Positions 7,179 through 13,653 of a stretch of 34,211 nucleotides of DNA are shown piece by piece. The translations under genes were made by a program, and so were the position numbers. The stretch covers positions 1 to 34,211 of IMG/VR virus record IMGVR_UViG_3300011013_000046; one strand, 5' to 3'. This DNA comes from a virus. How positions within the stretch are numbered: the stretch's first letter is position 1; every line of letters starts with the position of its first letter. Below the pieces are notes generated by a model. It ran no database searches, was not told the origin of the DNA, and was given only the letters and a program-made list of their open reading frames with translations.

Positions 7179-8954
7179 TTACGCGGCTTCTAAGAACAGA
7201 TCCTCTTCCAGTCTCCATTCGCCATTGATAGCATTTATCATTTGACGTGATCCATCTGGATACACAAGACAGCTTGAATGCATCCAAGAACTTGGGCCAC
7301 GATTATAACTGAGTTTTAGGAGACTAGTAGTTCCAACTTGCCAAGCGCCACGAAGAATTTCAGGAGTATGGCTATGTCCGGTGACAGAGAGTCCGTATGC
7401 CGCTTCAATACTCTTGATACCGCCTCGAGATCCATTCGCCCCAAGATCTCCATGAGCTCCAAGTTGGATACCCGCGATTTTGTAGTCTTCATCTCTATCT
7501 AACCACCTAACTTTATCTGGCGTATTTAATCCGATATCATTTACAGCCCATTGTAGAGGATCATTACCGTCGATCGCCTCTCTTGCAAGATCTAGCGCAT
7601 AGCGATGATTCTGTGGATCCTGTATGTAATAGCCAGACATTAGATATCTATCTAAAAACTCATCATGATTAGATTTAACAATAACAACTTCATCGACAAG
7701 TTCAGTAAGACTATTTATATCATTAACCAAGAAGTGTATCTCACTTCTAAGATCATGTTTCTGCTCTGCAACTTTTTTAGCTCTAGATATTACATTGTTT
7801 CGCTCATGGTGATTAATAGCTTCACCATCAAACAGGTCGTGCATAATTAAACGGTTAACACCTGTTAATTTAGCTACCTCAAAAAATGCATCTCTTGCTA
7901 ATGGGTCCGTCGAACCAGAATGCCAATCACCTAATACGAATGCCTCTGGTGCAATCTTAGTGGCTGATCCGTCTGCATGATATTGCACACCAAGATCGAT
8001 AAACGCGCCATCCTCGTCAATCTGGACCTGCCTGAAATGGTATCTATCATCATCAACAACCTCAACAACCAATCCACCGATAACGTGATCGTGCTCAGCA
8101 ATGAATGCAGTTCTTCCACTCATATAGTTATCTGTTGAATAGTCTGGGACAGTGACTGCACCTGTGGTCATTACAAAGTGTGGAAACTTTTGATTAGATA
8201 CTGGTACAGCTTTACACCTTTGTTTAGGTGAAGCAAAGATAAATGTACCATTCTTTGAAGCAATACGTGTCATGCTCGTGGCAGGATCAACATGTTTAGC
8301 ACTTAGTTTAACTGTACTAATGCAGAGATTTGTATTCAATGCAATATCCGATACTACAATAGAGATATCGGGGTCGTTAGCCAATTGTGCATCAACTGTT
8401 CCGTAATCGGCTCCAGGTGAGAACTTATTATGTGCAGGATCTGATGCTACGAGAATCAAAGCATGCGCCTTATTCTTTGCGCAGAAATTCTTAATCGATG
8501 CAATAAACTCATCGTTTGCCTTACAACCTGTTACAGCCGTAGTTACAAAGAATCGCTTATGGTTTGAAACAGCAGTCTGCATCTTATGGAGATTTTCTGG
8601 TGTAAGTAGTTCGTTAAGGTAGATATCAAAGAAACTATCCGGATGTGCCTCACGAGCTGCCTTATTGAGACGCGCCAGGTTACGAAAGTAATACGTAACA
8701 GTATCCTTCGAGTATCCAGTATCGACCATGTCATTCATACTGACATAACCCTTCTCTTCGGCTATTTCGGCATAAGCATCAATGAGCTCGATTTCTTTCT
8801 CTTTACGCTCTTGCTCTTCCTGAAGTTTCTCAGCTTCTTTCTTGAGCTTCTCTTCTTCTTTGCGCTTTTGCTCTTGAAGCTTTTCCTGCTCTTTACGAAG
8901 CTTCTCTGCTTCCTTAAGCTTTTTAGCTTCTTCTTTTGATATCTCTTCTGTCAT
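7179..8954 (-). CDS. T5 A1-like metallophosphatase (putative DNase) with coiled-coil N-terminus
   Basis: 591 residues. The first 60 form an uninterrupted K/E/Q coiled coil. Residues about 65-90 look like a helix-turn-helix. A large middle domain of unknown fold follows. The C-terminal half has the calcineurin-like phosphoesterase motifs in order: L-G-D-W-H-S (340), D-L-F-D-G-E (371), S-N-H-D-E (427), G-A-H-G-D (499) and T-G-H-S-H-T (524), with the expected metal-binding D, N and H. This arrangement matches my memory of phage T5 protein A1, which is needed for host DNA breakdown and completion of DNA entry. Start is ATG three bases after the dTMP kinase stop. The Mre11-type core is clear; the A1 assignment is from recall. 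Confidence 0.7.
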   Translation of the reverse strand: MTEEISKEEAKKLKEAEKLRKEQEKLQEQKRKEEEKLKKEAEKLQEEQERKEKEIELIDAYAEIAEEKGYVSMNDMVDTGYSKDTVTYYFRNLARLNKAAREAHPDSFFDIYLNELLTPENLHKMQTAVSNHKRFFVTTAVTGCKANDEFIASIKNFCAKNKAHALILVASDPAHNKFSPGADYGTVDAQLANDPDISIVVSDIALNTNLCISTVKLSAKHVDPATSMTRIASKNGTFIFASPKQRCKAVPVSNQKFPHFVMTTGAVTVPDYSTDNYMSGRTAFIAEHDHVIGGLVVEVVDDDRYHFRQVQIDEDGAFIDLGVQYHADGSATKIAPEAFVLGDWHSGSTDPLARDAFFEVAKLTGVNRLIMHDLFDGEAINHHERNNVISRAKKVAEQKHDLRSEIHFLVNDINSLTELVDEVVIVKSNHDEFLDRYLMSGYYIQDPQNHRYALDLAREAIDGNDPLQWAVNDIGLNTPDKVRWLDRDEDYKIAGIQLGAHGDLGANGSRGGIKSIEAAYGLSVTGHSHTPEILRGAWQVGTTSLLKLSYNRGPSSWMHSSCLVYPDGSRQMINAINGEWRLEEDLFLEAA

Positions 8955-9737: not shown

Positions 9738-11192
9738 TTACTTACCCATGTTCTTATACACACCGTTAAAACGAGGAGTATAAACAAACAACGCTCCGTA
9801 AAGAACAATCGCGAACTCAAGTGCAGTTGTAACGATTGCGAAGTTGATCTTACTTAGAGGAGCAAGCTGCTTGAAGCGCATGCACTCTGCGTTAAGGTCA
9901 AGCATGAATGCTTCACCGAGACCAGGACTCTTTTCGCCAGCATCTACATAAGCGGCTAGGCCAGCTCTGTAGTTTCCAACGAACTCTTCAGTTCCGGCAG
10001 CGCCGCCATCAGCAGAACGATATACTCGGAAGTACTTCGTTCCAGCCTGAGGAGCTGGCATTGTTAGAACGACTGAGCTGTCATCAGCTGCTACAGTTAC
10101 TGCTGAAGTAATCTGACGCGGTGAGGACTCACCGAAGTCGTTTACTTCAGTAATCTTGTACTGGTATGTACCAGCCGCAAGTTGACCAGTTGCTCCGCCG
10201 CCATCTGCACCTGTTACTGCTGCTGGAAGACCAGGAGCATTAGCATTTACAGCTTTAGCACGAGCGCGCCCACGTGGACGTAAGAACAAGTTAGGCTTAA
10301 GATCCATTGTTCCGGCTGTTGTCTGGACCTTAGATACATCGTAACCAACAGTTTGGTTAGATAGACCTGGTGCAGATCGGAATTGTGGATAGAATTGTCT
10401 AACAAATGAGCTAAGAGCTAGAGGCTCGATGTGAATCTCTGAAGGAGAAGCGAAATTCTCAAGCAAGATCACAGATAATTCTTCAATATCATCTTGGGTC
10501 ATTACTGAACCAGCTTGATCGCGAACGATTGACTGGAATGAGCCGTAACCTTCGAAGTCACCAGACTGCTGCTGAGCATCCTGATCGCCTCTAAGAAGCT
10601 GCTGAAGAAGACCATTCATTGCAAGAGAGTCTTGCGGAATGTCTGAAGTTGAACCAGTTTGAAGACCAAGAGCGTCTGTAAAGTGAGCGTGTGCCCAGTA
10701 CATTTCTCTTTCAACATTCTTAAGAAGATGCATAGTACCTTCTTTAGCTTGCTGTGCTACAACATCACCAACAGTTGTACGGACAAGAGTCATTTGGTGA
10801 GAGACTTTACGTCTTGTACCAAAGAACACAATTCTTTGTCCGTCACGGATGTATGTAGAATCTTCTTCTTGAGGAGCTCCACCTTCACCAATGTAAGGAC
10901 TAGAATCTGAACCGTAACCAGTTAGTCGGTTGTACTGCTCAAATAAGTTGTATGCTTTGTCGATCGAAATCGCAGGCCACAACTTAAGGTTTTTCATGTC
11001 AAAAGTTACACTCTTAAGAGTAGTCTCTAATGACTCCGTTTGGATTACACCACCGTAGGTTAGATCAGTCGGTTTCCCGGCTCCACCATAACCAGCTGTA
11101 ATCGCTTTTTGCAAGTTTTCAACATCGTCAGGAGTAACAAGACCCTGCTCAATGCCCTGCATGATTGAATTTACTGCTTCGTTAAATGCCAT
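9738..11192 (-). CDS. Major capsid protein (HK97 fold, SPO1/A511-like)
   Basis: 484 residues from the ATG at 11192, ten bases after AAGGGAG; a TTG at 11201 is too close to the ribosome site. The first 29 residues look like a removable helical arm ending L-Q-K, then A-I-T-A-G-Y-G-G-A, the presumed mature N-terminus. Around residues 335-420 there is an immunoglobulin-like insertion (G-T-Y-Q-Y-K-I-T-E-V-N-D-F-G-E-S and F-R-V-Y-R-S). The tail F-K-Q-L-A-P-L-S-K-I-N-F-A-I and L-Y-G-A-L-F-V-Y-T-P-R resembles the C-terminus of Twort/K-type capsid proteins as I recall them. Six bases separate it from the scaffold gene, and a strong terminator follows. Confidence 0.85.
   Translation of the reverse strand: MAFNEAVNSIMQGIEQGLVTPDDVENLQKAITAGYGGAGKPTDLTYGGVIQTESLETTLKSVTFDMKNLKLWPAISIDKAYNLFEQYNRLTGYGSDSSPYIGEGGAPQEEDSTYIRDGQRIVFFGTRRKVSHQMTLVRTTVGDVVAQQAKEGTMHLLKNVEREMYWAHAHFTDALGLQTGSTSDIPQDSLAMNGLLQQLLRGDQDAQQQSGDFEGYGSFQSIVRDQAGSVMTQDDIEELSVILLENFASPSEIHIEPLALSSFVRQFYPQFRSAPGLSNQTVGYDVSKVQTTAGTMDLKPNLFLRPRGRARAKAVNANAPGLPAAVTGADGGGATGQLAAGTYQYKITEVNDFGESSPRQITSAVTVAADDSSVVLTMPAPQAGTKYFRVYRSADGGAAGTEEFVGNYRAGLAAYVDAGEKSPGLGEAFMLDLNAECMRFKQLAPLSKINFAIVTTALEFAIVLYGALFVYTPRFNGVYKNMGK
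11025..11105 (-). repeat. Capsid N-arm segment, copy 1 (in the major capsid protein)
   Basis: These 27 codons encode A-I-T-A-G-Y-G-G-A through V-I-Q-T-E-S-L-E. The same stretch, with a few substitutions, is encoded at 12656-12736 inside the prohead protease gene. Confidence 0.85.
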
Positions 11193-11207
11193 TTTGGACA
11201 AACTCCC

Positions 11208-11993
11208 TTATTTAATGTTGTACTTATTAACGATTTTAACAAGCTCGCTAGGATTACCTAGTTCTGCACTTGCAATATCCACTGTTTCTACGCTCTCACC
11301 ACTCTTCTTAAGATCGAATAGTTTTTCAACTATCTGAGACTTATTTAAAGCTTCACCTTCTTCTTCGCCAGCTGACTTAGCAAGTGGTTGTACACTCTTA
11401 TAAGTAGCACCCTTAGAAGGTACTGGTGATTCTGCCAAATCTTGAACAGCTTTAGCAATTGCTTCTAGCTTTCCTTCAAGACCCCCCACTTTGTCATCAA
11501 TGTAAGACTTCATTAAAGTCTCTTGACTCTCCAAAGATTCTGCGACAGACTTAGCCAGTTTATGGTGGCCAGCGTTAGGATCAGCTTCGGAATTTTTTCC
11601 TTCGCCTTTGTCCATATCATCTTTGTCTTTGTCATCATCATCGTCTTTGTCATCATCATCGTCTTTGTCATCATCTGCCTTAACAATTTGATGCTTACCA
11701 GCGTTAGGATCAGCTTCGGAATTTTTTCCTTCGCCTTTGTCCATATCGTCAGCTTTTTCTGCTTTGTCGTCGTCTTTGTCGTCGTCTTTGTCGTCGTCTT
11801 TGTCGTCATCGTCAGCTTTACTAGCTTCTTCTTCTTTGCCTAGAGAACCATTTTTGTCCTTACCTGCTAGACCTTCAGAATCACCCATCTTAACTTCAGA
11901 AGCGGAAAAACGATCAGACTTTTTTAACTCTTCGATTTCAGCTAAGCTTTCATCGATTAGAGAAACAAGACTTTTCATCATCTCTTCATTCAT
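11208..11993 (-). CDS. Acidic head scaffold protein (putative)
   Basis: 261 residues from the ATG at 11993, which has GGAAGGA upstream. The protein is highly acidic and low-complexity in the middle, with runs of D-D-D-K and two copies of D-K-G-E-G-K-N-S-E-A-D-P-N-A-G encoded by a 50-base direct repeat. The ends are helical. Six L-x-K-S motifs (K25, K148, K162, K206, K218 and K230 precede the S) resemble the presumed cleavage site of the capsid protein, as expected for a scaffold digested by the prohead protease. It lies directly upstream of the capsid gene and downstream of the protease gene, the usual scaffold position. No homologue is recognised by sequence. Confidence 0.7.
   Translation of the reverse strand: MNEEMMKSLVSLIDESLAEIEELKKSDRFSASEVKMGDSEGLAGKDKNGSLGKEEEASKADDDDKDDDKDDDKDDDKAEKADDMDKGEGKNSEADPNAGKHQIVKADDDKDDDDDKDDDDDKDKDDMDKGEGKNSEADPNAGHHKLAKSVAESLESQETLMKSYIDDKVGGLEGKLEAIAKAVQDLAESPVPSKGATYKSVQPLAKSAGEEEGEALNKSQIVEKLFDLKKSGESVETVDIASAELGNPSELVKIVNKYNIK
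11569..11618. repeat. 50-bp direct repeat, copy A, within the scaffold gene
   Basis: Identical over 50 bases to 11699-11748 (offset 130). It encodes M-D-K-G-E-G-K-N-S-E-A-D-P-N-A-G. Trinucleotide-like D/K codon arrays lie between the copies and after the second, so the region is prone to length change. Confidence 0.9.
11699..11748. repeat. 50-bp direct repeat, copy B, within the scaffold gene
   Basis: Second copy of the repeat at 11569-11618; the identity at DNA level, including third codon positions, suggests a recent duplication or ongoing conversion. Confidence 0.9.
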
Positions 11994-12024
11994 AGTGTCT
12001 AATCCTTCCAATTAAGAGTTAAGG

Positions 12025-12529: not shown

Positions 12530-13570
12530 TTACACCATCATTCGAACTAAGTCTTCAAATGACAAACTCTTCTGACATTCTCGACACTTTACTTGGTTTC
12601 CCATGTGAACTTGTTCATGGCCACACTCTTTACAGGTTATATACTTGAATCCATCTTCTAAGGATTCAGTTTGTATAACAGAACCATCGGTTCTATCAGT
12701 TGGTGCACTAGCACCTCCATAACCAGCAGTCAATGCTTTCTTTAATTTTGCATAAGATTCGAATAGTGTTTTAAAATCTTCATATTGATTCCGATCAGGT
12801 GCTTGATTTACGCCACTGATTATAGAATTGATTTCTTCAATATTTTTTCTTAGTTTATAACGAACTGAATTAGTTATCACATCGTCGACGCCCTTATAGG
12901 GCATCTGAATCTCAATTCCTACAGATGCAGCTAAATCTTGAATTTTACTAAGATTTTCCATTAATTTTTCAGCGGACACTCTACGTGTAATATGGCGGAA
13001 TGACGGGATATCTGTTTTAGCAAGATGCATAACAGACTTGATAAGTACTTGATCCTCTTCCCAGTTAGAGCTCTTAGATAGACTTGTTGGTTCTACTAAG
13101 GTGGCTTGATTGGCAGGAGTGAATGTGAGGGCGACTGAATGAATCTTCGTTCTTGCTAATAAGTTGGTATCAGACACACCTCTTGCTTGAACCCCACCCT
13201 CAACGGATGCTTTCAATCTTAGTGGACAATCTGACTTATGGATATTTCTTAGGATAGCTGATGCTGCTCTGGCGTTGGGGTGGTCACTATCGTCATATAG
13301 TTCACCTTCAACATATATAAAGGGTGATTTGACCTTACCCCAGTAGTATGAGTGACGTTCGGTAGAGCAATCTTCTTTAGAGAAAATTTTCTTGGCCCCA
13401 GTCACCTTACCTATAGAATTGAAAAAACCCTTGCCGTGATTGTCATTTAGACGACCTCGGCCTGCTTGTAATTCAGATATATCAGCACCCTCTACACTAA
13501 GCATTTCACCTTGTGTATCTCGGAGCTGGCTACCAGCAATCATATCAATTTGAAGTGATTTCTTCCCCAT
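12530..13570 (-). CDS. Prohead maturation protease with capsid-arm copy and zinc ribbon
   Basis: 346 residues from the ATG at 13570; a GTG at 13615 is possible but lies in a hairpin without a ribosome site. The catalytic domain (about 1-165) has the phage assemblin layout: His in L-N-D-N-H-G-K (H45), Ser in K-A-S-V-E-G-G (S122) and a later I-H-S-V-A-L-T (H144). A helical linker follows. Residues 279-305 copy the N-terminal arm of the major capsid protein (A-L-T-A-G-Y-G-G-A to V-I-Q-T-E-S-L-E). The tail is a zinc ribbon with C313, C316, C329 and C332. It cleaves scaffold and capsid proteins inside the prohead. It begins the shell cluster, just before the 134-residue gene. Confidence 0.8.
   Translation of the reverse strand: MGKKSLQIDMIAGSQLRDTQGEMLSVEGADISELQAGRGRLNDNHGKGFFNSIGKVTGAKKIFSKEDCSTERHSYYWGKVKSPFIYVEGELYDDSDHPNARAASAILRNIHKSDCPLRLKASVEGGVQARGVSDTNLLARTKIHSVALTFTPANQATLVEPTSLSKSSNWEEDQVLIKSVMHLAKTDIPSFRHITRRVSAEKLMENLSKIQDLAASVGIEIQMPYKGVDDVITNSVRYKLRKNIEEINSIISGVNQAPDRNQYEDFKTLFESYAKLKKALTAGYGGASAPTDRTDGSVIQTESLEDGFKYITCKECGHEQVHMGNQVKCRECQKSLSFEDLVRMMV
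12656..12736 (-). repeat. Capsid N-arm segment, copy 2 (in the protease gene)
   Basis: Encodes A-L-T-A-G-Y-G-G-A-S-A-P-T-D through V-I-Q-T-E-S-L-E, preceded by L-K-K, closely matching the capsid protein at 11025-11105 (preceded by L-Q-K). About 21 of 27 residues are the same. Confidence 0.85.
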
Positions 13571-13577
13571 ATGAATT

Positions 13578-13583
13578 ATTATA
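13578..13583 (-). promoter_or_regulatory. TATAAT box seven bases before the protease ATG
   Basis: Minus strand AG-TATAAT-AATTCAT-ATG. No Shine-Dalgarno sequence is visible before this ATG. If the box is a real -10, the transcript would begin at or next to the start codon, that is, be leaderless. Confidence 0.35.
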
Positions 13584-13607
13584 CTACATAACTCACTGGA
13601 AATTGAA

Positions 13608-13653
13608 GAGTCCACCTAACAAATACCCGAAGGTAGTTTAATTAGGTGGACTC
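13608..13653 (-). terminator. Long hairpin with UUCG cap between the sigma-like gene and the protease gene
   Basis: Minus strand: 12-bp perfect outer stem GAGTCCACCTAA / TTAGGTGGACTC enclosing a second stem TACC-TTCG-GGTA with an ultra-stable UUCG-type loop. Only a weak T-rich tail (TTCAATTT) follows, so it could be a terminator or an RNA-processing/stability element. It lies 36 bases after the stop of the 119-residue gene. Confidence 0.55.

Follow-up and report, generated by a model that had tools for sequence, protein, structure and literature searches.

The window, meaning the whole stretch of DNA analyzed here, is a virus record of 34,211 bases whose minus strand carries an SPO1-like head block; there the genes are ordered terminase, portal, protease, scaffold-like open reading frame (ORF) and capsid. 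The protease ORF is open upstream to a GTG codon (12530-13615, minus strand, 361 aa); homologues place its probable start at the ATG at 13570. The window major capsid protein (MCP) resembles SPO1 gp6.1 (PDB 9vel, E 3.8e-58). The clade of the window is related to the Herelleviridae yet lies outside the classified family, with approximately 30% MCP identity. The features of the locus are as follows.

12530..13570, minus strand: gene for the head maturation protease, 346 aa when read from the conserved ATG (phrog_1028, E 2.5e-14)
13436..13438, minus strand: probable catalytic His45 (NDNHGKG), invariant in 35 homologues; role by analogy with assemblin-class proteases
13205..13207, minus strand: probable catalytic Ser122 (SVEG), invariant in 35 homologues; role by the same analogy
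12656..12745, minus strand: copy of the capsid arm within the protease tail (LKKALTAGYGGASAPTDRTDGSVIQTESLE), from the tail/arm match, invariant residues and predicted disorder
between 12737 and 12736, minus strand: predicted protease self-cut, the K/A bond after Lys, at the same motif as the capsid cut
12575..12634, minus strand: C-terminal zinc-ribbon-like motif C-x2-C...C-x2-C, a putative zinc site, with cysteines conserved in the window clade and a confident small fold in the model
11208..12011, minus strand: acidic scaffold-like ORF that separates the protease and capsid genes, so called from position and composition
9738..11201, minus strand: MCP gene (PHROG major head protein, E 6.4e-58)
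11106..11201, minus strand: capsid propeptide, the part predicted to be removed, without counterpart in the protease (upstream identity at background, 8%)
between 11106 and 11105, minus strand: predicted capsid cut after Lys, by homology to K24/S25 in PDB 9row
11025..11114, minus strand: N-arm of the capsid (LQKAITAGYGGAGKPTDLTYGGVIQTESLE), the source of the copied sequence, with its cut position from the same homology

The window carries a Herelleviridae-type head module, that is, an SPO1/K-type MCP with an N-terminal arm together with a protease that bears a copy of the arm. Within the scaffold-like ORF, acidic blocks are duplicated at 11513-11809 (minus strand), where DMDKGEGKNSEADPNAG occurs twice and DDDKDDD runs lie on the flanks. 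Beside the head genes, at 7179-8954 (minus strand), is the gene for a 591-aa protein that matches phrog_1745 (phage DNA transfer protein; E 1e-91).

The protease stretch from LKKALTAGYGGA to VIQTESLE (12656-12745, minus strand) matches the MCP N-arm at 11025-11114. A search of the window with the protease tail returned the tail itself and the MCP arm (66% identity over 38 aa, E 1.4e-11); these were the only matches, and no arm copy was found in the scaffold-like ORF by this search. The 32-residue tail/arm pair scored 110, approximately 15 standard deviations over 20,000 shuffles (mean 10.7, sd 6.7, maximum 49). Outside the copied segment, the protease and the MCP belong to different PHROG families, head maturation protease and major head protein, respectively. 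Residues K278, A282, G283, Q300 and E302 of the copy are invariant in 35 homologues. The initial annotation of this DNA had claimed a match to the capsid arm, in two proteins otherwise unrelated, that leads into a C-x2-C...C-x2-C ribbon; the E value and shuffles bear out the match, the separate families bear out the lack of other relationship, and the ribbon does come after the copy. Its placement of the segment start was right as to the A-[IL]-T-A-G region, but the similarity begins one residue before, at the lysine.

When 58 loci of the window clade were aligned at that lysine, tail/arm identity was 8% at P3-P15, 58% at P1'-P30' and 19% beyond. The SPO1-like, K-like, Bastille-like, L081 and Mx1 lineages had similar identity profiles around the lysine. 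In PDB 9row, the MCP of phage 812/K, the deposited chain has 439 residues that correspond to 25-463 of the 463-aa K precursor, such that the deposited mature K capsid begins at S25, right behind K24. The jump in identity at the lysine and the start of the 9row chain together indicate that the copied piece consists of the scissile lysine and roughly 30 residues from the start of the mature capsid. By 9row and the alignment, what has been copied is the retained N-terminus of the mature capsid, not the removed propeptide; a mimic extending upstream into the propeptide was ruled out, as identity there was at background. The claim that the copy sits at the end of the removable arm is therefore supported, since the 9row chain starts behind the homologous lysine.

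Because the copy begins at the cleavage lysine of the capsid, the same bond in the protease is the predicted self-cleavage site. A K/A or K/S pair opens both arm and tail in most lineages, and a P1 Lys followed by Ala, Ser, Thr or Met at P1' is retained in 102 of 105 tails. The tails of the Lactobacillus phages LpeD, Lb338-1 and 521B have no P1 lysine and keep the remainder of the copy, so self-cleavage at this position possibly does not occur in every lineage.

The copy is present across the Herelleviridae (SPO1, K, P100, EFP01, Bastille-like and Lactobacillus phages), in Myxococcus phage Mx1 and in approximately 60 uncultured relatives. Carriers include SPO1, K, P100, EFP01, Bp8p-C, Eldridge, SBSphiJ, LpeD, Lb338-1, 521B, LysYB2, phiSA_BS1 and EalM-132; among the named Herelleviridae carriers, Lb338-1 and 521B have the weakest copies. 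Both genes were located in 108 loci; three lineages of the Bacteroidota type, which have no mimic, were left out of the count. The other loci had profile matches in both proteins (105 pairs as tallied), with a profile that was built from the arms and tails of eight lineages and is not independent of those lineages. In the window clade, the copy and then the ribbon were found in every member with a complete tail. Searching ten Herelleviridae genomes for the arm gave exactly two places in each, capsid and protease; a third carrier, such as a scaffold, was not found in any of the ten. The K arm matched 1144 places in 589 records of the phage collection. Against the PDB, a phmmer search with the K protease returned only capsid protein (5lii, E 1e-6; 9row, E 7e-5), and the SPO1-like protease profile returned only SPO1 gp6.1 (E 4e-11). 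The copy is thus general to SPO1/K-type heads rather than confined to the window, and it is testable in model phages.

In Bacteroides DAC23, MT835500 and Chryseobacterium MA9V-3, the related capsids have arms, and the proteases assigned to these phages showed no copy. These proteases indicate that the copy is neither universal nor strictly needed. A search for DAC23-type relatives gave two fragments only, and no further Mx1-type lineages were found among the viral contigs searched. The sole relatives of the window protease in the genome collection (L150, L151 and L152) are in metagenome-assembled genomes of Bacteroidota (Saprospiraceae, Flavobacteriaceae and Cytophagales), a placement that hints at the hosts of the window clade, although binning may err.

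The tail of each protease resembles the arm of its own capsid. Peculiarities are shared within the pairs of Mx1 (KAMEAGNFNAAPSTLQGGSALQ with KAMEAGNFNAKPSTLVQGSAMQ), SPO1 (EAGYEVDPEKMEGGDVFRKESL with EAGHTVNPLDLEGGGAFRVESL), K (TGHGTSPDTQVDAGALRKE with TGYGITPDTQIDAGALRRE) and L146 (SFTTGSDIVGEGDTGGAAFRKQS with SFTTGTEIVTEGAEGGQAFRRQS). Among 13 lineages, similarity was 0.49 between a tail and its own arm and 0.22 in the remaining pairs (permutation p 1e-5); the tail was joined to its own arm in 75 of 78 quartets. With ten lineages chosen by a fixed selection rule (capsids <60% identical), own-arm joining was seen in 44 of 45 quartets. An AU test on ten lineages rejected the tree with all tails in one clade (p 0.0014, log-likelihood lower by 64.5), on segments short enough that most single forks of the tree are unresolved. 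When 74 closely spaced lineages were used, 1176 of 2701 quartets put the tails together; many of these quartets lie within a clade, and such a result is expected since arms are nearly identical inside a clade. The initial annotation had suggested looking for the segment in homologous proteases and for its co-variation with the capsid: homologues do carry the copy, and it follows their own capsid. The contrary outcome, homologues that lack the segment or do not track the capsid, was not what homologues generally showed.

At positions where a tail and its own arm agree in residue, they also used an identical codon in 757 of 1984 cases, compared to 764 expected from codon usage; many of the loci are related, and the 1984 cases are not independent. 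Codon sharing at the chance rate indicates that selection at the protein level keeps the copy, and recent duplication or gene conversion was rejected by this test. A trace of gene duplication, one of the origins offered in the initial annotation, is for the same reason not supported as the cause of its persistence. A duplication relic, or ongoing conversion between the two genes, would gain from their being close neighbors and from the grouping of tails with their own arms, which is the pattern that conversion would give; but with codons shared at chance and the segment persisting across lineages whose capsids are <45% identical, we regard this origin as very improbable.

AlphaFold modeling of the window protease with 35 sequences gave a mostly confident body, helices, a disordered stretch at residues 276-305 that covers the arm copy, and a confident ribbon. 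The model of an SPO1-like protease, of lower quality (mean pLDDT 61.5), was disordered at residues 162-218 and then had a helical end. In Foldseek, the top 8 matches to the window model were herpesvirus proteases (best E 3.3e-3, prob 0.93); the SPO1-like model also matched herpesvirus proteases (best E 4.7e-4, prob 1.00), with T4 gp21 (5jbl) listed as well. The family match, the fold and the conserved His and Ser place the window protease in the assemblin/gp21 class, with catalysis predicted.

The arm copy is the constant part of these tails, and what lies downstream is swapped between lineages. The zinc ribbon is specific to the window clade; elsewhere the copy is followed by a helical domain or by a very long extension (approximately 970 residues in Mx1). 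Before the copy there are approximately 100 to 700 residues beyond the protease body, HEAT repeats included. Large proteases with extra domains before or after the copy were seen in L012, L013, L077 (937 aa), L057 (995 aa), L082, which is Mx1 (1239 aa), and L139 (1439 aa). Pfam identified HEAT/LRV repeats in L012 and L057 and a marginal GNAT match in L050; searches of the insert domains against PHROGs and the PDB gave nothing useful, and a lysozyme-like insert considered for L026 was not supported by the domain searches. One possibility is that the extra domains are cargo that enters the head or accompanies it.

SPO1 gp3.2 and phage K Pro are direct relatives of the window protease and have the same arm copy, which in gp3.2 matches gp6.1 and in Pro the K MCP; they differ in having a helical domain rather than a zinc ribbon after it. 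Herpesvirus assemblin (pUL26/pUL80), to which the phage models have fold matches, is a protease joined to a shell-binding C-terminal part, from which it cuts itself free. The herpesvirus tail differs, however, in being scaffold sequence shared via nested genes rather than a copy of the capsid protein. Gp245 of SPN3US, of the phiKZ type, is likewise an assemblin-class head protease with a C-terminal tail that contains the cleavage motif of its substrates. It removes its own 64-residue C-terminal propeptide, and proheads do not take up the truncated active form; its authors concluded that the C-terminal tail packages the protease (PMC7411985, PMC10052503). The motif that gp245 shares with its substrates is a short A-X-E, cut after Glu, whereas the window protease copies approximately 30 N-terminal residues of the mature capsid and has Lys as its predicted P1 by 9row and the alignment. 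T4 gp21 is in the same protease fold group, and the capsid targeting sequences (CTS) of T4 are also cleavable peptides that direct proteins into the prohead. In contrast, the CTS are N-terminal and removed, and T4 cuts after Glu (PMC5694885); no extended capsid mimicry was described for T4 in the literature searched. Self-removed targeting tails are already known in prohead proteases; the new element is a tail that is a copy of the capsid N-terminus and evolves together with it. The initial annotation knew of no such tail; we also found no description of capsid mimicry in the literature searched, but the tail is not peculiar to the window phage, as SPO1 and K have it. An earlier notice is possible in work on A511 Cps processing, on the SPO1 gp6.1 (9vel) and phi812 (9row) capsids or on HK97 protease encapsidation.

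By analogy with these systems, we infer docking and self-cleavage, both of which the initial annotation had offered as possibilities, and we put at about an even chance that the arm copy is a prohead-docking element combined with an autocleavage site. During prohead assembly, the tail would go where the capsid arms go, on the shell lattice or its assembly partner, and would load the protease onto the inner side of the growing shell. The activated protease would then cut the capsid arms after lysine (K/A or K/S) and its own tail at the same motif, and the self-cut would free the protease body and leave a short tail fragment of arm copy and ribbon. The autocleavage motif of the T4, phiKZ and SPN3US proteases is approximately three residues (PMC5694885), whereas approximately 30 prime-side residues are copied here, which argues for a binding surface, most simply an arm-binding site. 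The exchange of the downstream part by lineage while the copy stays also favors docking with self-cleavage. The protease, whether whole or in part, was detected in virions of the K-type phage fRuSau02 (PMC5618024) and of the P100-like phage CKA15 (PMC12282133). On the other side, conservation of the capsid arm could reflect recognition by the protease instead of by the shell, and DAC23, MT835500 and MA9V-3, with capsid arms and no copy in their proteases, indicate that the copy is not strictly needed.

The tail could instead be an autocleavage substrate only, with extended recognition of approximately 30 residues, by which the protease cuts itself for activation or clearance and does not dock to the shell. 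Such a role would fit the retained P1 Lys and small P1', the start of the copy at the scissile bond, the predicted flexibility of the segment and the precedent of self-cleaving prohead proteases. However, the prime-side match spans 30 residues and co-varies with the capsid, more than is needed for a short motif such as the three or so residues read by characterized relatives (PMC5694885), and the three Lactobacillus-phage tails without P1 Lys keep the remainder; we consider autocleavage alone unlikely. It is less likely still that the tail, as a pseudo-substrate, fills the active site and is displaced by real capsid arms only on assembly. A substrate copy is present in cis, and the N-terminus of T4 gp21 blocks that protease until activation (PMC9958956), but the AlphaFold segment was disordered rather than docked in both lineages modeled, and linkers that are long and very variable (approximately 100 to 700 aa) make a fixed cis docking less natural. 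The bond also appears cleavable by sequence; with the scissile Lys and small P1' kept, a non-cleavable form of the pseudo-substrate offered in the initial annotation is unlikely. Equally improbable is that arm and tail bind the scaffold or portal and not the shell, the tail being a core-targeting signal like the CTS of T4. Internal proteins of T4 and SPN3US are targeted to the core by cleavable peptides, and the tail would follow the arm whichever partner binds; against this, core-targeting peptides are removed, but the copied part stays on the mature capsid as its N-terminus.

Docking with self-cleavage has a more specific form, possible but doubtful, in which the protease poses as a capsid arm at the arm site of the shell lattice, frees itself by a cut at the bond that is also cut in the capsid, and leaves the tail fragment, made up of the arm copy with the zinc ribbon or other cargo, on the shell as a minor component of the virion. 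If true, this would be a capsid-mimic packaging signal of a kind for which no description was found in the literature searched, and it would explain variable cargo domains before or after fixed parts. How head proteases enter proheads and choose their substrates is an open question for most phages. The signature described here is common to >500 sequenced phages, including therapeutic phages of the K type and the model phage SPO1, and it names a predicted cleavage bond, a likely packaging signal and a co-evolving pair. The signature could also serve as a portable tag with which to load proteins into heads of the SPO1/K type.

In two records, those of phage 035JT004 (MZ501262, gene 205) and of Enterococcus phage 53 (OQ420427), the protease is annotated as "major capsid protein", a label that may have been transferred through the shared segment. 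In some genomes of the window clade, one further small protein, the third in number, also has sequence of the capsid N-domain. Small ORFs of approximately 75-102 aa lie directly upstream of the protease in L026 (7723-7969), L028 (7705-7969), L043 (7746-7971) and L046 (7658-7964), and further ones were found in G006 (97284-97370) and G004 (161897-161977); their ends resemble capsid residues just past the arm (e.g., LLKSVTFDMKNLVLWPS), with E values of 3e-11 to 3e-5.
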